DNA of 64,000 bases. Source: Flavobacterium azooxidireducens. Its GTDB lineage: Bacteria; Bacteroidota; Bacteroidia; Flavobacteriales; Flavobacteriaceae. Of the stretch, positions 36,345 to 44,992 are shown piece after piece. Location of the stretch: positions 3,307,001-3,371,000 of the forward strand of contig NZ_CP096205.1 in the NCBI RefSeq assembly GCF_023195775.1. The letters are read 5' to 3'. Below the pieces are notes generated by a model. The model had not been told where the DNA came from, ran no database searches, and saw only the letters and a list, made by a program, of their open reading frames with translations. The translations under genes were made by a program, and so were the position numbers. The first letter of the stretch is position 1. The number at the start of each line of letters is the position of its first letter.

Positions 36345-37016
36345 ATGACAGCAACCAAGAAAGCAGCAGCAAAGAAAAAGCCAATTACCGACGATGAAAT
36401 TATAAGTATTTATATGGATCAGGTATTGCAACACAATGCTGAACCTAAAAATGTATATCTGTTTTGTCAAGATAATAAGATTGTAGAAAGTGATTTTTAT
36501 GCTTTTTATGGTTCGCTTGATGCTTTGAAGCAAGATATCTGGGTGAAATTTTTTGACAATGTTAAAAACACAATCGAGTCGGATGAAAATTATTTGACCT
36601 ATTCGAATAAGAATAAATTATTGACACTTTATTTTTCGTTGATTGAAATACTGACATTAAACAGAAGTTATGTCGTGTTTTCATTGAAGGAAGAAAAGAA
36701 TATGTTGAAAAATTTACAACAATTGAAAACGTTTCGAAACCATTTTAAAAGTTTTATCGTAGATATGATAGACACGCAGACTTCGGAGGAGGATTTTAAA
36801 GTCAATAAGATTGCAAAACCGCTTTATGTTGAAGGTGCTTGGGTAGAGTTCTTATTTATATTGAAATTTTGGTTGGATGATACTTCAAAAGGATTTGAAA
36901 AAACAGATGTGATGATTGAAAAAGCAGTGAAAGCTACTTTTGATGTGTTAGATACCACTCCATTGGATAGTTTATTGGATCTGGGAAAATTTGTTTGGAA
37001 AGAAAAATTTAATTAA
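36345..37016 (+). CDS. TetR-family regulator
   Basis: The 223 residues begin with a lysine/alanine-rich tail (TKKAAAKKKP), then a divergent TetR-type HTH in which the segment DFYAFYGSLDALKQDIWVKF matches the recognition-helix and helix-4 region, followed by a helical ligand domain. The first HTH helices are unusual (NAEPKNVYLFCQDNKIVESDF), so DNA binding is likely but less certain. It precedes the ABC1 kinase gene by 157 bp, a pairing I remember from other flavobacteria, with a GC-rich repeat element in the gap. Confidence 0.8.
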   Translation: MTATKKAAAKKKPITDDEIISIYMDQVLQHNAEPKNVYLFCQDNKIVESDFYAFYGSLDALKQDIWVKFFDNVKNTIESDENYLTYSNKNKLLTLYFSLIEILTLNRSYVVFSLKEEKNMLKNLQQLKTFRNHFKSFIVDMIDTQTSEEDFKVNKIAKPLYVEGAWVEFLFILKFWLDDTSKGFEKTDVMIEKAVKATFDVLDTTPLDSLLDLGKFVWKEKFN

Positions 37017-37030
37017 CAGCACTCATTCGC

Positions 37031-37164
37031 GTGAGGGATAGAAGCGGACCTGCCTGCCGGCAGGCAGGAAGCCCACAGCAACAACGTAGCTTGCGAAGTT
37101 GTAGCGATCCCGATAGCTATCGGGATGCAGCGGATAGCCCGTTCGCCTTCGGCGGAACACGCCC
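37031..37164 (+). repeat. GC-rich structured repeat, copy 2 (possible Flavo-1-like RNA)
   Basis: This block starts GTGAGGGATAGAAGCGGACC and ends GGAACACGCCCA, as does the copy at 2384-2555. It holds two perfect 20-bp palindromes: CCTGCCTGCCGGCAGGCAGG and ATCCCGATAGCTATCGGGAT. The second recurs nearly unchanged in copy 1, followed in both by GCAGCG and AGCCCG. It fills the gap between the TetR gene and the ABC1 kinase gene, so it would be part of the transcript, and ends 9 bp before the kinase start codon. Confidence 0.65.
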
Positions 37165-37173
37165 AAAAAAAAT

Positions 37174-38487
37174 ATGAAAACACTAGACAAAATACCAACC
37201 AATAAAATTGAACGTGCCGGACAATTGGTGAAAACCGGTTTGAAAGTAGGAGGAAACTACATTGCCTATTATGGCGAAAAAGTGGTGAATCCGAGTTTGA
37301 CAAAAGATAAATTGAACGAAAACAATGCAGAGGATATTTATGACGGACTCAAAAACCTGAAAGGAAGTGCGTTGAAAGTGGCTCAAATGCTGAGCATGGA
37401 GAAAAACATTATGCCAAGAGCGTATGTAGAGAAGTTCTCGCTGGCACAATTTTCGGTACCGCCGTTGAGTGCTCCGTTGGTGAGAAAGACATTTAAAAAT
37501 TATTTGGGAAAATATCCTGAACAACTATACGATTCGTTTACGCCTGATTCAATTAATGCGGCCAGCATCGGTCAGGTGCACAAAGCCGCAAAGGATGGGA
37601 AAAATCTTGCTGTGAAAATTCAATATCCGGGCGTAGCGGAAAGTATTAGTTCAGACTTGGCAATTGTGAAACCTTTTGCTATTAAAATGTTCAACCTCCA
37701 AGGAAAAGACTCGGAGAAGTATTTCAAGGAGGTTGAGCATAAATTAATGGAAGAAACGGATTATGATTTGGAGCTCAAGCAAGGAAAATTCATTGCCGAA
37801 GCATGTGCGATGATTCCGAATTTGAGATTTCCGAAATATTATGAAGAATTGTCGTCGAAGCGAATCTTAACAATGGATTGGATGGATGGCGAACATTTAT
37901 CGGAGTTTACGGCTCACAATTCAGATCGAGAAAAAGGTGACAAATTAGGACAAGCGTTATGGGATTTTTATATGTACCAGATGCATCATTTAAAACAAGT
38001 ACACGCCGATCCGCATCCGGGAAATTTTTTGATTGATGATGAAGCGAATTTAATTGCGATTGATTTTGGTTGCATCAAACAAGTTCCGGAAGAGTTTTAT
38101 GTGCCGTATTTTGAATTGGCAAGACCGGAAGTAATTGGAAACCCAAAATTGTTTAATGAAAAGTTGTTTGAATTAGAAATATTACGAACCGATGATTCGC
38201 CGAAAGAAATTGAGTATTTCACCAAGTTGTTTCATCAGTTGTTGAGTTTGTTTACGCAACCGTTTCACGGAGATTTCTTTGATTTTTCGGATGAAGAATT
38301 CTTTGGAAACATTGCCAAAATGGGTGAGGAGTTCTCGAAAGATACGCAATTGCGAAAAATGAACGGCAACAGAGGTTCAAAACACTTTTTATACATTAAC
38401 AGAACGTTCTTTGGTTTGTATAATTTGCTTCACGATTTAAAAGCAAGAGTTCACACCAAAGACTACGAAAAATACATTGTCAACTAA
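37174..38487 (+). CDS. ABC1/UbiB-type atypical kinase
   Basis: The 437 residues form an ABC1 (AarF/UbiB) kinase-like domain: the alanine-rich loop with NAASIGQVHKA, VKIQYPG with the nucleotide-binding lysine, the HADPHPGNFLID catalytic loop and AIDFGCIKQ. The family uses ATP to assist lipid or quinone metabolism in membranes. It follows a TetR-family gene that may control it. The start codon lies next to the end of a structured repeat. Whether it serves menaquinone or the nearby phenolic-lipid cluster is unknown. Confidence 0.9.
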   Translation: MKTLDKIPTNKIERAGQLVKTGLKVGGNYIAYYGEKVVNPSLTKDKLNENNAEDIYDGLKNLKGSALKVAQMLSMEKNIMPRAYVEKFSLAQFSVPPLSAPLVRKTFKNYLGKYPEQLYDSFTPDSINAASIGQVHKAAKDGKNLAVKIQYPGVAESISSDLAIVKPFAIKMFNLQGKDSEKYFKEVEHKLMEETDYDLELKQGKFIAEACAMIPNLRFPKYYEELSSKRILTMDWMDGEHLSEFTAHNSDREKGDKLGQALWDFYMYQMHHLKQVHADPHPGNFLIDDEANLIAIDFGCIKQVPEEFYVPYFELARPEVIGNPKLFNEKLFELEILRTDDSPKEIEYFTKLFHQLLSLFTQPFHGDFFDFSDEEFFGNIAKMGEEFSKDTQLRKMNGNRGSKHFLYINRTFFGLYNLLHDLKARVHTKDYEKYIVN

Positions 38488-38604: not shown

Positions 38605-38770
38605 TACCACGATTCCAACTTAACCCACGGTTTTAACCGTGGGATGTTTGTGTAGAGAAATACCACGATTCCAACTTATCCCATGGTTAAAACCGTAGGT
38701 TGTTTGCATTGAAAAAAACGGAATTTATACCACGATTCCAACTTATCTCAAGGTTTAAACCGTGGGTTGC
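38605..38770. repeat. Three direct copies of a palindrome-bearing repeat
   Basis: The string TACCACGATTCCAACTTA begins at 38605, 38661 and 38728 (TACCACGATTCCAACTTAtc in the last two). Each is followed within 10 bp by an imperfect hairpin of the form CCCACGGTTTTAACCGTGGG (copies: perfect, one with CCATGGTTAAAACCGTAGG, one CAAGGTTTAAACCGTGGG) and then ttg/tttg. Spacing is 56 and 67 bp. They are REP-like and not CRISPR: only three units, uneven spacing and no unique spacers of fixed size. Confidence 0.8.
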
Positions 38771-38850: not shown

Positions 38851-39972
38851 ATGAACTCAACTCCCCAAATAGCAATCATCGGTGGCGGTCTCGCCGGATT
38901 AACTGCGGCAATTCATTTAGCGAAAGCGGGAAAGCCTGTTCTCTTATTTGAAAAAAACACCTATCCAAAGCATAAAGTCTGTGGCGAATTTATTTCAAAC
39001 GAAGTTTTGCCTTATTTCAAGCTATTAGGTTTGGATATTTCTACGTTAAATCCAACTTCAATTGATAAAACGACTATTTCTATTTCATCGGGAAAATCAA
39101 TTTCAGCCCATCTACCTTTGGGTGGATTCGGGATAAGTCGCTATCGGTTAGATGGTTATCTTTATGAAAAAGCCAAAGAATCCGGTTGTCAAATCATTCA
39201 TCAACAAGTAAATGAGATTGATTTTTCAAACGATTCATTTACCATTCAAACCGAAAATAACGATACTATTCAAGCCAAAGTAGTTTTAGGAGCTTTTGGA
39301 AAACGATCAAATTTAGACAGCAAACTCAAACGTAATTTTATTCAAAAAAAATCCCCTTGGTTAGCCGTAAAAGCTCATTACAAGGGAAATTTCCCGAATG
39401 ATTTAGTCGAATTACACAATTTTGAAGGTGGTTATTGCGGTGTTTCAAAAGTGGAGAATGACATTATTAATATTTGTTATCTAACTAAATATGAATCATT
39501 TAAAAAATACAAAGCTATTTCCGATTTTCAATTGAAGGTATTAAATCAAAACCCAAAACTAAAAGCCATCTTAGCCAATTCAGAAATGCTTTTTGAAAAA
39601 CCATTAACCATTAGTCAAGTTTCTTTCGAAAGCAAAAAACAAGTTGAAAACCATATTTTGATGCTCGGGGACACCGCCGGATTAATTCATCCGCTGTGTG
39701 GAAACGGAATGGCGATGGCAATTCACAGTGCCAAAATAGCCAGCGAATGCACAATTGAGTTTCTAAATGGGAAAATAAATCGCAAGGAATTAGAAATAAA
39801 CTACACCAATCAGTGGATTTTCCATTTTAAATCACGCATTCAAATGGGAAAAATGCTCTCAAAATTATTACTCAATCCAGTTCTGAGTAAAATGATGATG
39901 AAATGGCTGATAATCTTCCCAAAATTACTACCTTTCCTAATTCAAAAAACACACGGAAAGCCAATTCAATAA
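38851..39972 (+). CDS. FAD-dependent oxidoreductase of the phenolic-lipid cluster
   Basis: The 373 residues are a flavoprotein with GGGLAGLTAA at 11-20, KVCGEFIS near 47, and the GDTAGLIHPLCGNGMAMA motif near 275, placing it in the geranylgeranyl-reductase/aromatic-hydroxylase group. It opens an operon with a methyltransferase and a type III polyketide synthase, the same trio as in the Streptomyces griseus srs operon, in which the flavoprotein hydroxylates a methylated alkylresorcinol. A reductase role on an alkyl chain is the alternative. Stop and next start overlap (TAATG). Confidence 0.87.
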   Translation: MNSTPQIAIIGGGLAGLTAAIHLAKAGKPVLLFEKNTYPKHKVCGEFISNEVLPYFKLLGLDISTLNPTSIDKTTISISSGKSISAHLPLGGFGISRYRLDGYLYEKAKESGCQIIHQQVNEIDFSNDSFTIQTENNDTIQAKVVLGAFGKRSNLDSKLKRNFIQKKSPWLAVKAHYKGNFPNDLVELHNFEGGYCGVSKVENDIINICYLTKYESFKKYKAISDFQLKVLNQNPKLKAILANSEMLFEKPLTISQVSFESKKQVENHILMLGDTAGLIHPLCGNGMAMAIHSAKIASECTIEFLNGKINRKELEINYTNQWIFHFKSRIQMGKMLSKLLLNPVLSKMMMKWLIIFPKLLPFLIQKTHGKPIQ

Positions 39973-40682
39973 TGTTTGTAAACACTAAATTTCGCAACAG
40001 AGAAGAAGAATTAATGGATGATTTTTCTATGGAGGGAAATGAATTAACCACTGCTTTACAAACCATTGTATTTATTAATCAAAAGTTAGGCGGTAATAAA
40101 ATAACCATTAACGGCGTAAAAGAATTACTGAAATCAGTCAATAAATCCAAACCAATTACCATTTATGATGTTGGTTGCGGAAATGGTGATATGTTGCGTG
40201 AAATTGCAAAATTCGGACTTTTAAACGGATATCAATTTGATTTAATTGGGATTGATGCGAACGCTTTCACAATTAAAGAAGCCATAAATTTATCGGAAGA
40301 ATTTACAAATATCAGCTATATCCAGGAAAATATTTTACATAAACAAATTAATGAAGTAAAAATAGATATTACTCTATTTACCTTAACATTACATCATTTT
40401 AGTGATGACGAAATTAATATGATTTTACAAGATTATTTGGTAAAAAGTAAGTTGGGAATTGTAATTAATGATTTGCATCGAAGTTCCATTGCCTATCACT
40501 TATTTCAATTGGTTTGTTTTGTCTTTCAATTAAAAGAAATGCCCAAAAAAGACGGTTTGCTTTCTATTTTAAAAGGATTCAAAAAGGAAGAATTAATAGC
40601 TTTTTCAAAAAAAATTAACGCTTCAAAACAAATAATTCAATGGAAATGGGCGTTTCGTTACCAATGGATTATTTGGAAATAA
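39972..40682 (+). CDS. SAM-dependent methyltransferase
   Basis: The start at 39972 (MFVNTKFRNREEE) overlaps the stop of the preceding gene by one base in TAATG. The 236 residues include SAM motif I IYDVGCGNGDMLRE near 72 and LTLHHFSDDEINMIL. The protein is a class I methyltransferase that fits O- or C-methylation of a small aromatic product. Its position beside a type III polyketide synthase suggests that it modifies its resorcinol or pyrone product. An upstream in-frame ATG at 39903 would overlap the preceding gene by 70 bp and is unlikely. Confidence 0.85.
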   Translation: MFVNTKFRNREEELMDDFSMEGNELTTALQTIVFINQKLGGNKITINGVKELLKSVNKSKPITIYDVGCGNGDMLREIAKFGLLNGYQFDLIGIDANAFTIKEAINLSEEFTNISYIQENILHKQINEVKIDITLFTLTLHHFSDDEINMILQDYLVKSKLGIVINDLHRSSIAYHLFQLVCFVFQLKEMPKKDGLLSILKGFKKEELIAFSKKINASKQIIQWKWAFRYQWIIWK

Positions 40683-40692
40683 AAAATAAATT

Positions 40693-41745
40693 ATGCCCGT
40701 CAAAATAAAAACAGTTGCCAAACAACTTCCTCAATATTCTCGTGAAACTTCAGAAATACTGCCATTTTTAGATAGTTGGTTAGCAGGTCAAGACGATCGT
40801 TTTGTTAGAAAAGTAAAAAAGATATTTGAAGGTGCCAATGTTGACAAACGCTATTCTATCATGAATCCGGAAGAAGTATTTTCACTCACTTCATTTGAAG
40901 AACGAAATGCCATTTATTCCCGCGAAATGATTGTTTTAGGCGAACAAGTTTTGCAAAAAGCCTTTCGTCAAGCCAATTGGAAACCTGAAGAGTTAGATTA
41001 TATCATTACCGTTAGTTGCACCGGAATTATGATTCCGTCTCTCGATGCTTATTTAATTAATCGATTACATTTAAAACAAGATATTATTCGACTTCCGGTA
41101 ACGGAAATGGGTTGTGTTGGCGGTATTTCAGGATTAATTTATGCAAAAAACTTTCTCAAAGCCAATCCCAATAAAAAAGCCGCTGTCATCGCTGTTGAAA
41201 GTCCAACCGCAACGTTTCAATTGGATGATTTTTCGATGGCAAACATTGTCAGTGCTGCGATTTTTGGTGATGGAGCGGCCTGCGTGTTATTGTCTTCTTA
41301 TGAAAATGAAATTGGACCAACCATCGTTGACGAAGCCATGTATCATTTTTATGACAAAGAAAAAATGATGGGTTTTGAACTGACAAACAAAGGTTTAAAA
41401 ATGGTTTTAGATATTGAAGTTCCTGAAACCATTGGCGAACATTTTCCTGCTATAATTCATCCATTTTTGGAAAAAAACAAATTATCCATCGCCGATATCG
41501 ATCATTTAATTTTTCATCCTGGTGGGAAAAAAATCGTACATTTAGTCGAAGATTTATTTTTAGATTTAGGTAAAAACATCGACGACACCAAAGAAGTTTT
41601 GCGGTTGTATGGAAATATGTCAAGTGCCACCGTTTTATTTGTCTTGGAAAGAATTTTGCAACAAAATCCAAAATTAGGTCAAAGAGGTTTGATGCTGAGT
41701 TTCGGTCCCGGATTTACAGCTCAACGAATTTTATTAGAATGGTAA
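40693..41745 (+). CDS. Type III polyketide synthase (chalcone/stilbene synthase family)
   Basis: The 350-residue enzyme holds the complete triad: C141 in EMGCVGG, H275 in FHPGGKK and N308 in YGNMSS, with SFGPGFTAQ near the end. Such enzymes load an acyl starter, add malonyl-CoA units and cyclise to resorcinols, pyrones or phloroglucinols. Neighbouring acyl-carrier and fatty-acid genes suggest a long acyl starter delivered by ACP or CoA, as for alkylresorcinol synthases. The product ring type cannot be read from sequence. The next gene starts 7 bp before this one ends. Confidence 0.93.
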   Translation: MPVKIKTVAKQLPQYSRETSEILPFLDSWLAGQDDRFVRKVKKIFEGANVDKRYSIMNPEEVFSLTSFEERNAIYSREMIVLGEQVLQKAFRQANWKPEELDYIITVSCTGIMIPSLDAYLINRLHLKQDIIRLPVTEMGCVGGISGLIYAKNFLKANPNKKAAVIAVESPTATFQLDDFSMANIVSAAIFGDGAACVLLSSYENEIGPTIVDEAMYHFYDKEKMMGFELTNKGLKMVLDIEVPETIGEHFPAIIHPFLEKNKLSIADIDHLIFHPGGKKIVHLVEDLFLDLGKNIDDTKEVLRLYGNMSSATVLFVLERILQQNPKLGQRGLMLSFGPGFTAQRILLEW

Positions 41746-42518
41746 ACGAATTTCAACATACTTGGGCAATCATCCTCGGAGGAAGTTCCGGATTAGGATT
41801 GGCTTCTGCTAAAAAGTTAGCCGAAAACGGAATGAATATTTGCATCATTCACCGAAATACTCGAGTGGAATTACCCGAAATTGAACGAGAATTTGAAATC
41901 ATAAAATCAACAGGAATTTCCTTTTTAAGTTTTAATTTGGATGCGTTACAACCAGAAAAGCGAGAAGAAATTATCAATCAAATCAAAATAGAAATTGGTT
42001 CAAATAAAATAAAATGCCTCATTCACAGCATTGCAAAAGGAAGTTTAAAAAGTATGACTTCCGAAAATTCATTGTCAACCGATGATTTTTTGTTAACTAT
42101 CAATGCGATGGCAATTTCGTTGTACGATTGGACTAAAGCAGTTTTTGAAGCTGATTTATTTCATCACGATGCCCGAATTATTTCTTTTACTAGTGAAGGA
42201 AGTCTAAAACCCATTCCGAATTACGGAGCTGTGAGTGCTGCAAAAGCAACGTTGGAAGCCATTTCAAGACAAATTGCCTATGAATTTGCAGGTTTTGGCA
42301 TCAAAAGTAATTGCATTCAAGCGGGTGTGACCAATACAAAATCTCTTCAATTGATTCCGAATAGTGAAAAAATTAAAGAATTTGCTATAAAACGAAATCC
42401 TTTTAAACGATTGACAGAACCCGAAGATGTGGCCAATGTAGTTTATCTACTTTGTAAAGAAGAGGCAAAATGGATCAATGGTACAATTGTGAAAGTAGAT
42501 GGTGGTGAAAGTCTTTAA
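41739..42518 (+). CDS. SDR family enoyl-ACP reductase-like protein
   Basis: The 259 residues are a short-chain dehydrogenase with LGGSSGLGLASAKKLAENG at 13-31 and the active-site pair Y162 and K169, spaced Y-X6-K as in FabI/FabL enoyl-ACP reductases and unlike the Y-X3-K of ketoreductases; the surrounding PNYGAVSAAKATLEA and SIAKGS agree. I therefore read it as the enoyl reductase of a dedicated acyl chain builder. The start overlaps the polyketide synthase gene by 7 bp. A ketoreductase is not encoded in the operon. Confidence 0.82.
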   Translation: MVNEFQHTWAIILGGSSGLGLASAKKLAENGMNICIIHRNTRVELPEIEREFEIIKSTGISFLSFNLDALQPEKREEIINQIKIEIGSNKIKCLIHSIAKGSLKSMTSENSLSTDDFLLTINAMAISLYDWTKAVFEADLFHHDARIISFTSEGSLKPIPNYGAVSAAKATLEAISRQIAYEFAGFGIKSNCIQAGVTNTKSLQLIPNSEKIKEFAIKRNPFKRLTEPEDVANVVYLLCKEEAKWINGTIVKVDGGESL

Positions 42519-42530
42519 AATCAAATTGAA

Positions 42531-42959
42531 ATGAAAGAAACTGATTTAATTTTAAGTAAACTTCCGTACCAAAAACCATTTCTTTTTGTAGATGAATTGC
42601 TTCAAATTGATGAAAATGAAGCAAAAGGAACATTTACATTTGATGAAAAGTTAGATTTTTATAAAGGTCATTTTAAAGATAATCCAATTACGCCGGGTGT
42701 AATTTTAATCGAAACTATGGCTCAAATTGGGTTGGTTTGTTTGGGAATTTATCTAACCTTGAACGAAGATGTTTCGCAAATCGCCTTTTCATCCTCCGAA
42801 GTTGAATTTTTAAAACCCGTTTTTCCCAACGAAAAAGTCACCGTTTTTTCAGAAAAAGTCTATTTCCGTTTTGGAAAATTAAAATGCAAAGTTCGAATGA
42901 TGAACAGCAAAAAAGAAGAAGTTTGTAGCGGAACTTTATCAGGAATAATTATAAAATAA
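42531..42959 (+). CDS. FabZ-like 3-hydroxyacyl-ACP dehydratase
   Basis: The 142-residue hotdog protein has the FabZ active-site pattern with H47 in GHFKDNPITPGV and E61 in IETMAQ. It would dehydrate 3-hydroxyacyl-ACP in the cluster's own chain-building cycle. It lies 12 bp after the SDR gene and 1 bp before the ketosynthase gene. Length matches FabZ. Confidence 0.88.
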   Translation: MKETDLILSKLPYQKPFLFVDELLQIDENEAKGTFTFDEKLDFYKGHFKDNPITPGVILIETMAQIGLVCLGIYLTLNEDVSQIAFSSSEVEFLKPVFPNEKVTVFSEKVYFRFGKLKCKVRMMNSKKEEVCSGTLSGIIIK

Positions 42960-42960
42960 A

Positions 42961-44235
42961 ATGCAAAAAAAACGTGTCGTAATAACCGGATTAGGCGTTG
43001 TAGCTCCCAATGGTTTGGGAGTGAAGAACTTTTTGCACGCAATCAAAAACGGAATTTCGGGAATCAAACACGATGCAGAATTAGTACGATTACAGTTTTC
43101 CTGTCAAATTTCGGGAACACCTGAAATAGCGGAAGAACTTAAAAAAGAATATTTTACAGAATTAGAATTAAAAAACTTCAACGCATCCGGAATTTTATAT
43201 GGAGTAATCGCCGGAATAGATGCTTGGAAAGATGCCGGATTATCCATTGAAAACAACGAAAATCCCGATTGGGAGAGCGGGACAATATTTGGATCAGGAA
43301 CTTCAGGAATCGAAAAATTCAGGGAAAGCATCTATAAAATTGACGATTTTCAAACTAGAAGATTAGGAAGTACAGCTGTTGCTCAAACGATGAACAGTGG
43401 CGTGAGTGCTTATTTGGCGGCCAAACTAGGTTTAGGAAATCAAGTAACAACCAATTCATCCGCCTGTGCAACCGGTACAGAAAGCATTTTGATGGGGTAT
43501 GAACGAATTGTTTCCGGGCAAGCGAAACGAATGTTGGTGGGAAGCACTTCTGACAGAGGGCCGTACATTTGGGGTGGATTTGATGCAATGCGGGTTTGTA
43601 CTTTCAAACATAATGATTCACCTGAAAAAGGCTCTAGACCAATGAGTGCAAGTGCTTCCGGATTTGTGCCGGGAAGTGGAGCAGGAGCAATGATTTTGGA
43701 AGATTTAGAATCCGCTTTAGCCAGAAATGCAACAATTTATGCAGAAGTTTTAGGTGGAAACAGCAATTCCGGAGGACAACGAGGTGAAGGAACAATGACC
43801 GCTCCAAACTCAATTGCAGTTCAAAAATGTATTGAAGATGCGTTGCTAAATTCAAATATAAATTCAAATCAAATTGATACAATAAATGGACATCTAACTG
43901 CCACAACTAAAGATAGTTTAGAGATTTTTAATTGGAGTAAAGCTTTATATTTATCCAAATCAGATTTCCCATATATTAATTCATTAAAATCAATGATTGG
44001 ACATTGTCTTTCGGCTTCCGGAAGTATTGAAAGTGTGGCAACAGTTTTGCAAGTTCATCACGGATTTATTTTTCCATCGATTAATTGTGAAGATTTGCAT
44101 CCGGAAATTGAAACTTTGGTTAATAGAGAAAAAATTCCGCAACAACTTCTTCAAAAAGAAATCAATATTGCTGTAAAAGCTAGTTTTGGTTTTGGCGATG
44201 TTAATGCCTGCGTTGTTTTCAAAAAGTTTAGCTAA
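42961..44235 (+). CDS. Beta-ketoacyl-ACP synthase (KAS II/FabF type)
   Basis: The 424-residue ketosynthase has C169 in SSACATG, H311 in NGHLTAT and H348 in SMIGHCL, with K343. These are the Cys-His-His residues of decarboxylating condensing enzymes; the usual HGTST is altered to HLTAT. It would elongate ACP-bound chains. It sits between the dehydratase and the ACP, and there is no second chain-length-factor-like subunit as in aryl polyene or flexirubin systems. Confidence 0.92.
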   Translation: MQKKRVVITGLGVVAPNGLGVKNFLHAIKNGISGIKHDAELVRLQFSCQISGTPEIAEELKKEYFTELELKNFNASGILYGVIAGIDAWKDAGLSIENNENPDWESGTIFGSGTSGIEKFRESIYKIDDFQTRRLGSTAVAQTMNSGVSAYLAAKLGLGNQVTTNSSACATGTESILMGYERIVSGQAKRMLVGSTSDRGPYIWGGFDAMRVCTFKHNDSPEKGSRPMSASASGFVPGSGAGAMILEDLESALARNATIYAEVLGGNSNSGGQRGEGTMTAPNSIAVQKCIEDALLNSNINSNQIDTINGHLTATTKDSLEIFNWSKALYLSKSDFPYINSLKSMIGHCLSASGSIESVATVLQVHHGFIFPSINCEDLHPEIETLVNREKIPQQLLQKEINIAVKASFGFGDVNACVVFKKFS

Positions 44236-44261
44236 GTTGCTTATCTTCGTAAAAAAAGAAA

Positions 44262-44516
44262 ATGAACAAAGAAGAAACCATTCTCAAACTGAAAAACATT
44301 GTAAAGCCATACATTAAAAATCAAGAAGCTTTTGAGAATTTAAATGAAAACACAGATTTTATTAATGATTTAAAGATAAACTCAGCCAATTTGGTTGATG
44401 TTATTTTAGACATTGAAGAAGCTTTTGATATTGTGATTGACAATGCATCGATGGAAAGAATGCTCAATGTTCAAGCAGCGTTGGAAATCATCGATACCAA
44501 ATTAGCCGAAAAATGA
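44262..44516 (+). CDS. Acyl carrier protein of the cluster
   Basis: The 84 residues are a four-helix acidic carrier protein; the phosphopantetheine attachment serine is most likely S41 in INSANLVDVILDIEE, where the usual DSL is replaced by NSA. It carries the growing chain for the ketosynthase, dehydratase and reductase encoded next to it. It overlaps the phosphopantetheinyl transferase gene by 4 bp (ATGA). Confidence 0.85.
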   Translation: MNKEETILKLKNIVKPYIKNQEAFENLNENTDFINDLKINSANLVDVILDIEEAFDIVIDNASMERMLNVQAALEIIDTKLAEK

Positions 44517-44992
44517 TTGGAAATGATGTCATCGATTTAGCGTTAGCAAGAGTAGAAAGCAATTGGCAACGAAAAGGTTGCCTCGATAAACTATTTACTA
44601 CAAAAGAGCAAAATCTTATTTTTTCTGCAAAAAATCCAACACTTATGGTTTGGATTTTGTGGAGTAGGAAGGAAGCCGTTTATAAAATCATCCGACAAGA
44701 AGACGGTTTGCGTGGATTTTACCCATTAAAAATAGAAAATACTGACTACGATTCCGGAATTGTTTGTTTTAATAAAAAGGAATACTATACCAAAACAGTT
44801 CAAAAAGGCGATATGTTGCATACTATTGCTTTAAGAAATCTTCAATTTAATAAAATCTCAGAACTAAATACTTCGATTGAAATTCATAAAAAAGATGAAA
44901 TTCCGTTTATAATTACTAACGGAAAAAATCATTTCATTTCAAAAAGTCATCACGGAAGATTTGAGAAAATCCTACTACTAAATTTAAGTTAG
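44513..44992 (+). CDS. 4'-phosphopantetheinyl transferase
   Basis: The 159 residues have the two AcpS/Sfp-type signatures GNDVIDLA (D5, D8) and WSRKEAVYK. The enzyme would move phosphopantetheine from CoA to the serine of the ACP encoded just before it, with a 4-bp overlap. Having its own transferase supports the view that this ACP is dedicated to the cluster. It ends the operon; no clear terminator follows. Confidence 0.88.
   Translation: MIGNDVIDLALARVESNWQRKGCLDKLFTTKEQNLIFSAKNPTLMVWILWSRKEAVYKIIRQEDGLRGFYPLKIENTDYDSGIVCFNKKEYYTKTVQKGDMLHTIALRNLQFNKISELNTSIEIHKKDEIPFIITNGKNHFISKSHHGRFEKILLLNLS

Follow-up and report, generated by a model that had tools for sequence, protein, structure and literature searches.

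In Streptomyces, srsABC encodes a type III polyketide synthase (PKS), a methyltransferase of the ICMT type (SrsB) and a flavin enzyme, with no chain builder alongside. Four other kinds of system are compared with the locus considered here. In the arsABCD operon of Azotobacter vinelandii, synthesis of the fatty chain falls to ArsA, two type III PKSs are supplied by ArsB and ArsC, and a phosphopantetheinyl transferase (PPTase) by ArsD (PMC4824345, PMC3098273). The hidABC operons of cyanobacteria and a planctomycetal operon bring together a methyltransferase (MT), an oxidoreductase and a type III PKS, and alkylresorcinol products have been shown for some operons of this type (PMC10896814, PMC8086630). 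For HidC, the proposed starter is a C14 chain on an acyl carrier protein (ACP), without any chain-building module. CylI of the (7.7)paracyclophane clusters is loaded from an ACP with a decanoic acid chain that type I PKSs have extended, again without a type II set (PMC8086630). The dar part of the flexirubin-type clusters makes its ring with DarB/DarA rather than a type III PKS (PMC3992019, PMC3949708), and a dialkylresorcinol is said to arise when two fatty acid intermediates condense (PMC3949708). Genome surveys of Flavobacteriaceae rank type III PKSs among the major cluster classes, at 9% and 10.74% of predicted clusters, with no product named (PMC7440613, PMC10734526). Here we describe an eight-gene operon at positions 38851-44992 of the window, a 64,000-nucleotide stretch of the Flavobacterium azooxidireducens genome (NZ_CP096205.1, positions 3,307,001 to 3,371,000). 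With a probability of about 0.72, and by analogy, we read it as a type II counterpart of arsABCD that would make a resorcinol or pyrone lipid with an alkyl or alkenyl chain, methylated and probably oxidised further.

The original prediction of eight overlapping or abutting genes in one direction, with named enzyme types, was borne out by Pfam and NCBIfam scans (Table 1). All eight open reading frames (ORFs) lie on the + strand, with successive gaps of -70, 10, -7, 12, 1, 26 and -4 bases. Like arsABCD, the operon combines a type III PKS with dedicated fatty acid synthase parts and a dedicated PPTase, which is present in 100/113 related loci. Unlike arsABCD, it uses discrete type II proteins without a ketoreductase (KR) where ArsA is a type I multidomain protein, it has one PKS instead of two, and it adds a methyltransferase and a flavoprotein. 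No type I ArsA is encoded. The hidABC combination of methyltransferase, oxidoreductase and type III PKS was found in 113/113 loci. The likeness is one of gene content; the hidABC and planctomycetal operons are described with three genes and no set of beta-ketoacyl-ACP synthase (KS), dehydratase (DH), ACP and PPTase, and the order here is flavoprotein (FAD)-MT-PKS. These first three genes had originally been matched to the srsA-B-C logic, a comparison that we replace with hidABC, given a class I methyltransferase here and an ICMT-type enzyme in SrsB. The pairing of a type III PKS with a type II module is new to the literature searched, where no description of it was found and from which subscription papers were mostly out of reach.

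Under the proposed mechanism, the PPTase would arm the dedicated ACP, and the FabF-like KS would elongate a chain on it with the help of the FabZ-like dehydratase and, where present, a FabL-type enoyl reductase (ER). Reduction of the beta-keto group would be borrowed from the FabG of the cell. The finished acyl-ACP, or a beta-ketoacyl-ACP, would then be passed to the type III PKS, which would add malonyl units and close the ring before the methyltransferase and the flavoprotein decorate it. We infer each of these reactions, the ACP-to-PKS transfer and its direction, the product with any hydroxylation and its site of methylation, and any membrane or other physiological role from the analyses that follow.

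Table 1. Genes of the operon, in window positions
Feature	Position	Strand	Length, families and residues
Flavoprotein (FAD-dependent oxidoreductase, geranylgeranyl reductase/hydroxylase/halogenase fold)	38851..39972	+	373 aa; TIGR02032, FAD_binding_3
Class I S-adenosylmethionine methyltransferase	39972..40682 (longest ORF from 39903)	+	236 aa; Methyltransf_31
Type III polyketide synthase	40693..41745	+	350 aa; Chal_sti_synt N + C; C141-H275-N308
FabL-type enoyl-ACP reductase-like short-chain dehydrogenase/reductase (SDR)	41739..42518	+	YX6K (Y162, K169)
FabZ-like 3-hydroxyacyl-ACP dehydratase	42531..42959	+	FabA-like domain; H47/E61
Beta-ketoacyl-ACP synthase, FabF-like	42961..44235	+	ketoacyl synthase N + C; C169-H311-K343-H348
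Acyl carrier protein	44262..44516	+	unusual N-S-A at carrier serine S41; below-cut-off NCBIfam ACP models
4'-Phosphopantetheinyl transferase, AcpS type	44513..44992	+	PF01648 42.4 bits; D5, E54, K58

Chance juxtaposition of these genes is ruled out because their content and order recur across genera. A search with the PKS (E <= 1e-40) matched 101 of 395 Bacteroidota genomes; identity was 66-100% in 33 of them, the own genome among these, and no more than 37% in the others. We fetched the loci of 24 of the 32 other close-PKS genomes and of 16 distant-PKS genomes. FAD-MT-PKS-DH-KS-ACP stood in that order in 24/24 of the close-PKS loci, and a KS, DH or ACP of the operon kind was found in 0/16 of the distant-PKS loci; among these, L071 matched the SDR in part and L074 matched the MT weakly. 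A scan of named genomes, with the best 80 of at least 555 relatives kept, returned mostly Flavobacterium and also Kaistella, Pedobacter, Frigoriflavimonas and several metagenome-assembled genomes under other names. In the combined 104 loci (24 plus 80, three being duplicated between the two sets), DH was matched in 104, KS in 104, ACP in 102, PPTase in 91 and SDR in 19; both loci missing the ACP sit at contig ends. With nine loci from another family added, the set reached 113 loci (at least three duplicates; matches counted anywhere in a locus), and the neighbourhood check that had been suggested for the PKS together with KS and ACP gave FAD, MT, PKS and DH in 113, KS in 112 and ACP, at a stricter cut-off, in 110, next to PPTase in 100 and SDR in 20. 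Median identities to the window were 77% for PKS, 74% for KS, 69% for ACP, 67% for DH, 62% for SDR, 59% for FAD, 55% for MT and 45% for PPTase. The order FAD-MT-PKS-(SDR)-DH-KS-ACP was kept across genera even where unrelated genes for GIY-YIG, MepB-like and YycE/glyoxalase proteins had been inserted between operon genes (L046, L050, L123).

The two halves of the operon are also retained together. At E <= 1e-75 the KS matched 38/395 genomes, namely the 33 close-PKS genomes and five others (G099, G391, G077, G127, G046) at 48-56%, which have no close type III PKS, just a distant one located away from the KS. Among 199 Flavobacterium genomes, 90 have the PKS and 87 the KS, and every genome with the KS has the PKS on the same contig; partial matches concern the PKS in G684 and G727 and the KS in G648. 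The three genomes with the PKS alone are 89, 60 and 77% complete, and when only genomes of at least 90% completeness and no more than 5% contamination are taken, the two genes are equally frequent, at 81/167 each. The family of G099 was covered by 151 genomes, and the KS was matched in 18 of these, with an identity of 65-71% in 12 and of 53-56% in 6. Ten of the 65-71% loci were newly fetched, and the PKS adjoins in nine; in the exception, G547, the operon is split between two contigs, one with DH-KS-ACP-PPTase and the other with FAD-MT-PKS (L185, L208), so that both halves are kept.

Active-site residues, scored by aligned columns and numbered as in Table 1, are intact throughout. The Cys-His-Asn triad of the PKS was where it had been claimed and is invariant in 115/115 sequences; together with the two Chal_sti_synt domains, it places the protein among the type III PKSs. 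Its nearest solved folds, among the matches listed, are Pks11 and then CylI (PDB 8ysp, 8yst, 8yt0, 8yw7), both fatty-acyl users, and Pks11 is also its best PDB sequence match. The fold matches that of type III PKSs, and the predicted activity is the extension of a starter with malonyl-coenzyme A and its cyclisation. The four KS residues are kept in 112/112 type-III-linked copies, in the one split copy and in the seven dar-linked and four GNAT-linked copies described below. The dehydratase pair is present in all 126 copies examined (114/114 type-III-linked) and the PPTase trio in all 108 (101/101 type-III-linked). The ACP had no Pfam hit and matched NCBIfam ACP models only below their cut-offs. 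At its carrier serine, N-S-A occurs in 110/112 type-III-linked and 7/7 dar-linked ACPs, N-S-S in the other two type-III-linked ones, and D-S-F (three) or N-S-M (one) in the GNAT-linked ones, set against D-S-L in ACPs aligned from two paralogue loci. The operon KS, DH and ACP are distinct from, and additional to, the other copies in the genome, which would include the housekeeping enzymes. The other KSs reach at best 33% identity to the operon KS; a 467-aa frame, probably LpxC-FabZ, matches the dehydratase at 28%, a second short dehydratase match lies near further KSs, and the operon ACP as query retrieved no other ACP in the genome at E <= 1e-3.

The SDR is where the elongation cycle varies. 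Its FabL-like character, already noted in the original prediction, held up: FabL (3oic) is its best PDB match, and the FabL model is its best NCBIfam match, below the cut-off of that model. A profile built from 18 SDRs (16 from operons, 2 from other modules) put 3oic first with 143 bits, ahead of a second chain with 103.1, and YX6K is invariant in 20/20 operon SDRs. By sequence, the operon SDR is therefore most likely an enoyl reductase. Of 25 aligned SDR matches, 21 have the Tyr; the loci of the remaining four have no SDR in the operon, and we regard these four as SDRs of unrelated kind. The 20/113 loci with an SDR have it at 38% identity or more. On the PKS+KS tree, it sits on deep branches and is patchy inside Flavobacterium. 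This deep-branch presence and the equivalent place of the SDR in 7/7 dar-linked modules suggest that it is probably ancestral and was then lost repeatedly; several losses or a regain would fit, and the weak tree supports do not separate them.

The strongest single argument for the supply of an acyl chain to the PKS is the exchange of acceptors. The last five genes form a module of their own, which also exists apart from a type III PKS. Wherever the KS is at 53-56% (the seven loci L168, L169, L195-L199), an SDR-DH-KS-ACP set stands divergent from a dar block with no type III PKS at the locus, and a PPTase match occurs in six of the seven. The block in L168 scores above the curated cut-offs for DarB (634.8; cut-off 550), DarG (197.8; 170) and DarH (453.7; 300), and the six other loci match these three proteins at 63-89%; we assume a DarA-like gene from its position. 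Each of the seven genomes has, in addition, a distant type III PKS at a separate site. In another Bacteroidota family, loci with a KS at 48-52% (L170-L172, L200) have DH-KS-ACP beside a GNAT-like gene, a label that rests on the hit of L171 to Acetyltransf_1, two others having no Pfam hit at cut-off and L200 being unscanned. Three of these four loci also have a GT2 glycosyltransferase (the contig of L200 is short), the SDR is found in L170 only, and the set perhaps belongs to a lipid pathway. On a KS tree rooted on three paralogues from the own genome, the copies from the modules group together (support 0.81), with the dar-linked ones as the first branch. The claim that the last five genes are a dedicated chain builder thus stands in part: they are tied to the PKS, and their KS, DH and ACP are distinct from the other copies in the genome, and the set is neither complete nor specific to the PKS. 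As a tentative extension, somewhat short of an even chance, we suggest that SDR-DH-KS-ACP-PPTase is a portable acyl-ACP builder of Bacteroidota, marked by N-S-A in place of the D-S-L carrier signature, which evolution has joined to acceptors unrelated to one another: a type III PKS, DarB/DarA or, with a D-S-F or N-S-M carrier, the GNAT-like/GT2 pair. Lineages that lost the enoyl reductase would have shifted the chain toward alkenyl or polyene tails, and the missing KR may mean that a beta-ketoacyl-ACP is the starter handed over, a possibility raised because CylI was solved with a beta-ketoacyl substrate.

Two other arrangements of the same genes have to be weighed. The ring could come first, with a DpgA-like PKS making an aromatic starter that the KS/DH/ACP module extends to an aryl-polyene-like chain. 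DpgA is indeed the top NCBIfam model for the PKS, most operons lack the ER in a way that would suit a polyene, and the own genome has a dar/flexirubin-type region as well. We consider this order of events improbable, given that the nearest solved folds and the best PDB sequence match of the PKS point to fatty-acyl substrates, that the operon encodes no second KS as chain-length-factor partner, and that the homologous module recurs beside a gene for DarB, whose dialkylresorcinol products are described as built from fatty acid intermediates. Alternatively, two separate pathways could be co-transcribed, the module making a chain for some other use and the PKS drawing acyl-coenzyme A or acyl-ACP from primary metabolism, as proposed for HidC. 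The 11 fetched loci in which the module has no type III PKS, the 16 distant type III PKSs without such a KS, DH or ACP nearby and the precedent of HidC all speak for separation. We hold it to be just as improbable as ring-first synthesis: a KS without the PKS was never found in the 199 Flavobacterium genomes, both halves persist where the operon is split, and the gene order survives unrelated inserts. Acyl-ACP supply fits better than either, because homologous sets are tied to type III PKSs or to dar genes, two acceptors for which the formation of resorcinol-type rings out of acyl chains is known or expected. Several points weigh against this assignment as arsABCD counterpart. The best NCBIfam model for the PKS, at 164.8 bits far under its cut-off of 425, is DpgA, which is not known to use a fatty starter. 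No ketoreductase gene was found by family scans of the operon proteins, the ER is absent from the operon in 93/113 loci (a count over operon loci, not whole genomes), and the type II cycle of KS, KR, DH, ER and ACP is therefore incomplete; the PPTase is missing in 13/113 loci, two of them at contig ends. Additionally, the named-genome set leans toward close relatives, shared ancestry inflates the co-occurrence counts since the genomes are not independent, and no experimental work on any close operon member was found in the literature.

The flavoprotein raises a further alternative that is compatible with the arsABCD-like assignment, namely that it halogenates the ring or the ACP-bound chain to give a halogenated phenolic lipid. 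It matches TIGR02032 (geranylgeranyl-reductase superfamily) at 115.4 bits, under the cut-off of 158.8, and its AlphaFold model has a mean predicted local distance difference test score of 89.5. Among the matches listed, the solved folds nearest this model are the halogenases PltA (Z 37.9), FasV (37.5), ChlB4 (37.5), Mpy16 (37.1) and RadH (36.5), with aromatic hydroxylases about 4 Z units below, and the best PDB sequence match is again a halogenase (5buk, E 8.6e-15). Having a fold in common does not establish a function. WxWxIP is a motif of many flavin-dependent halogenases, and it was found in 0/21 aligned flavoproteins, where the consensus at that position, judged by eye, is G-G-Y-C-G-V-S-K. 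The protein thus falls outside the flavin-dependent halogenases as defined by this motif, and we regard halogenation as slightly more doubtful than the two arrangements above. The 70-base overlap of the flavoprotein gene with the methyltransferase gene is probably a start-codon artefact, because an internal ATG shares one base with the flavoprotein stop (TAATG) and would give a protein within the length range of 24 relatives (234-241 aa).

Seen as a module, the locus turns a bare type III PKS annotation into testable claims about a specific ACP and a specific starter hand-over, and the presence or absence of the ER offers a natural series for testing them. Two different routes to resorcinols would then draw on related sources of chains. 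If this is true, type II synthases, and not only type I synthases, evolve into private suppliers of type III PKSs.

Other resorcinol-type and type III PKS loci were encountered as well. The own genome has a second resorcinol-type region at about 794-813 kb (L209-L210), with genes at 32-53% to the dar block of L168, further KSs (23-30%) and a dehydratase match; it holds no close copy of the operon module. A flavoprotein 'paralogue' near this region proved to be the end of a 510-aa CrtI-like ORF, most likely sharing just an FAD-binding stretch, and was discarded. Other Bacteroidota type III PKSs (L173, L174, L175, L074) stand in the order PKS-MT-x without a chain module, x being a flavoprotein in L173 and a 389-aa gene in the other three.

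The operon as conserved comprises eight genes, because its flanking genes are rarely or never matched in related loci. Downstream are a kduI-like gene, matched in 5/113 loci (one of them a duplicate), and further ORFs named by eye as resembling uronate catabolism. Directly upstream, at 36345-38487, lie adjacent genes for a TetR_C_23 protein and an ABC1/UbiB-like kinase, neither of which was matched at E <= 1e-10 in any of the 113 loci with the type III PKS; the quinone pathway that they hinted at was dropped on this account. The intergenic stretch between these two genes (37017-37173) is G+C-rich with palindromes, among them CCTGCCTGCCGGCAGGCAGG at 37049-37068, which occurs once in the window. 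In the 363-base gap before the operon, at 38606-38745, ACCACGATTCCAACTTA stands in three exact copies, each followed by a short palindrome-like stretch; these are its 3 matches in the window, where none is expected by chance.

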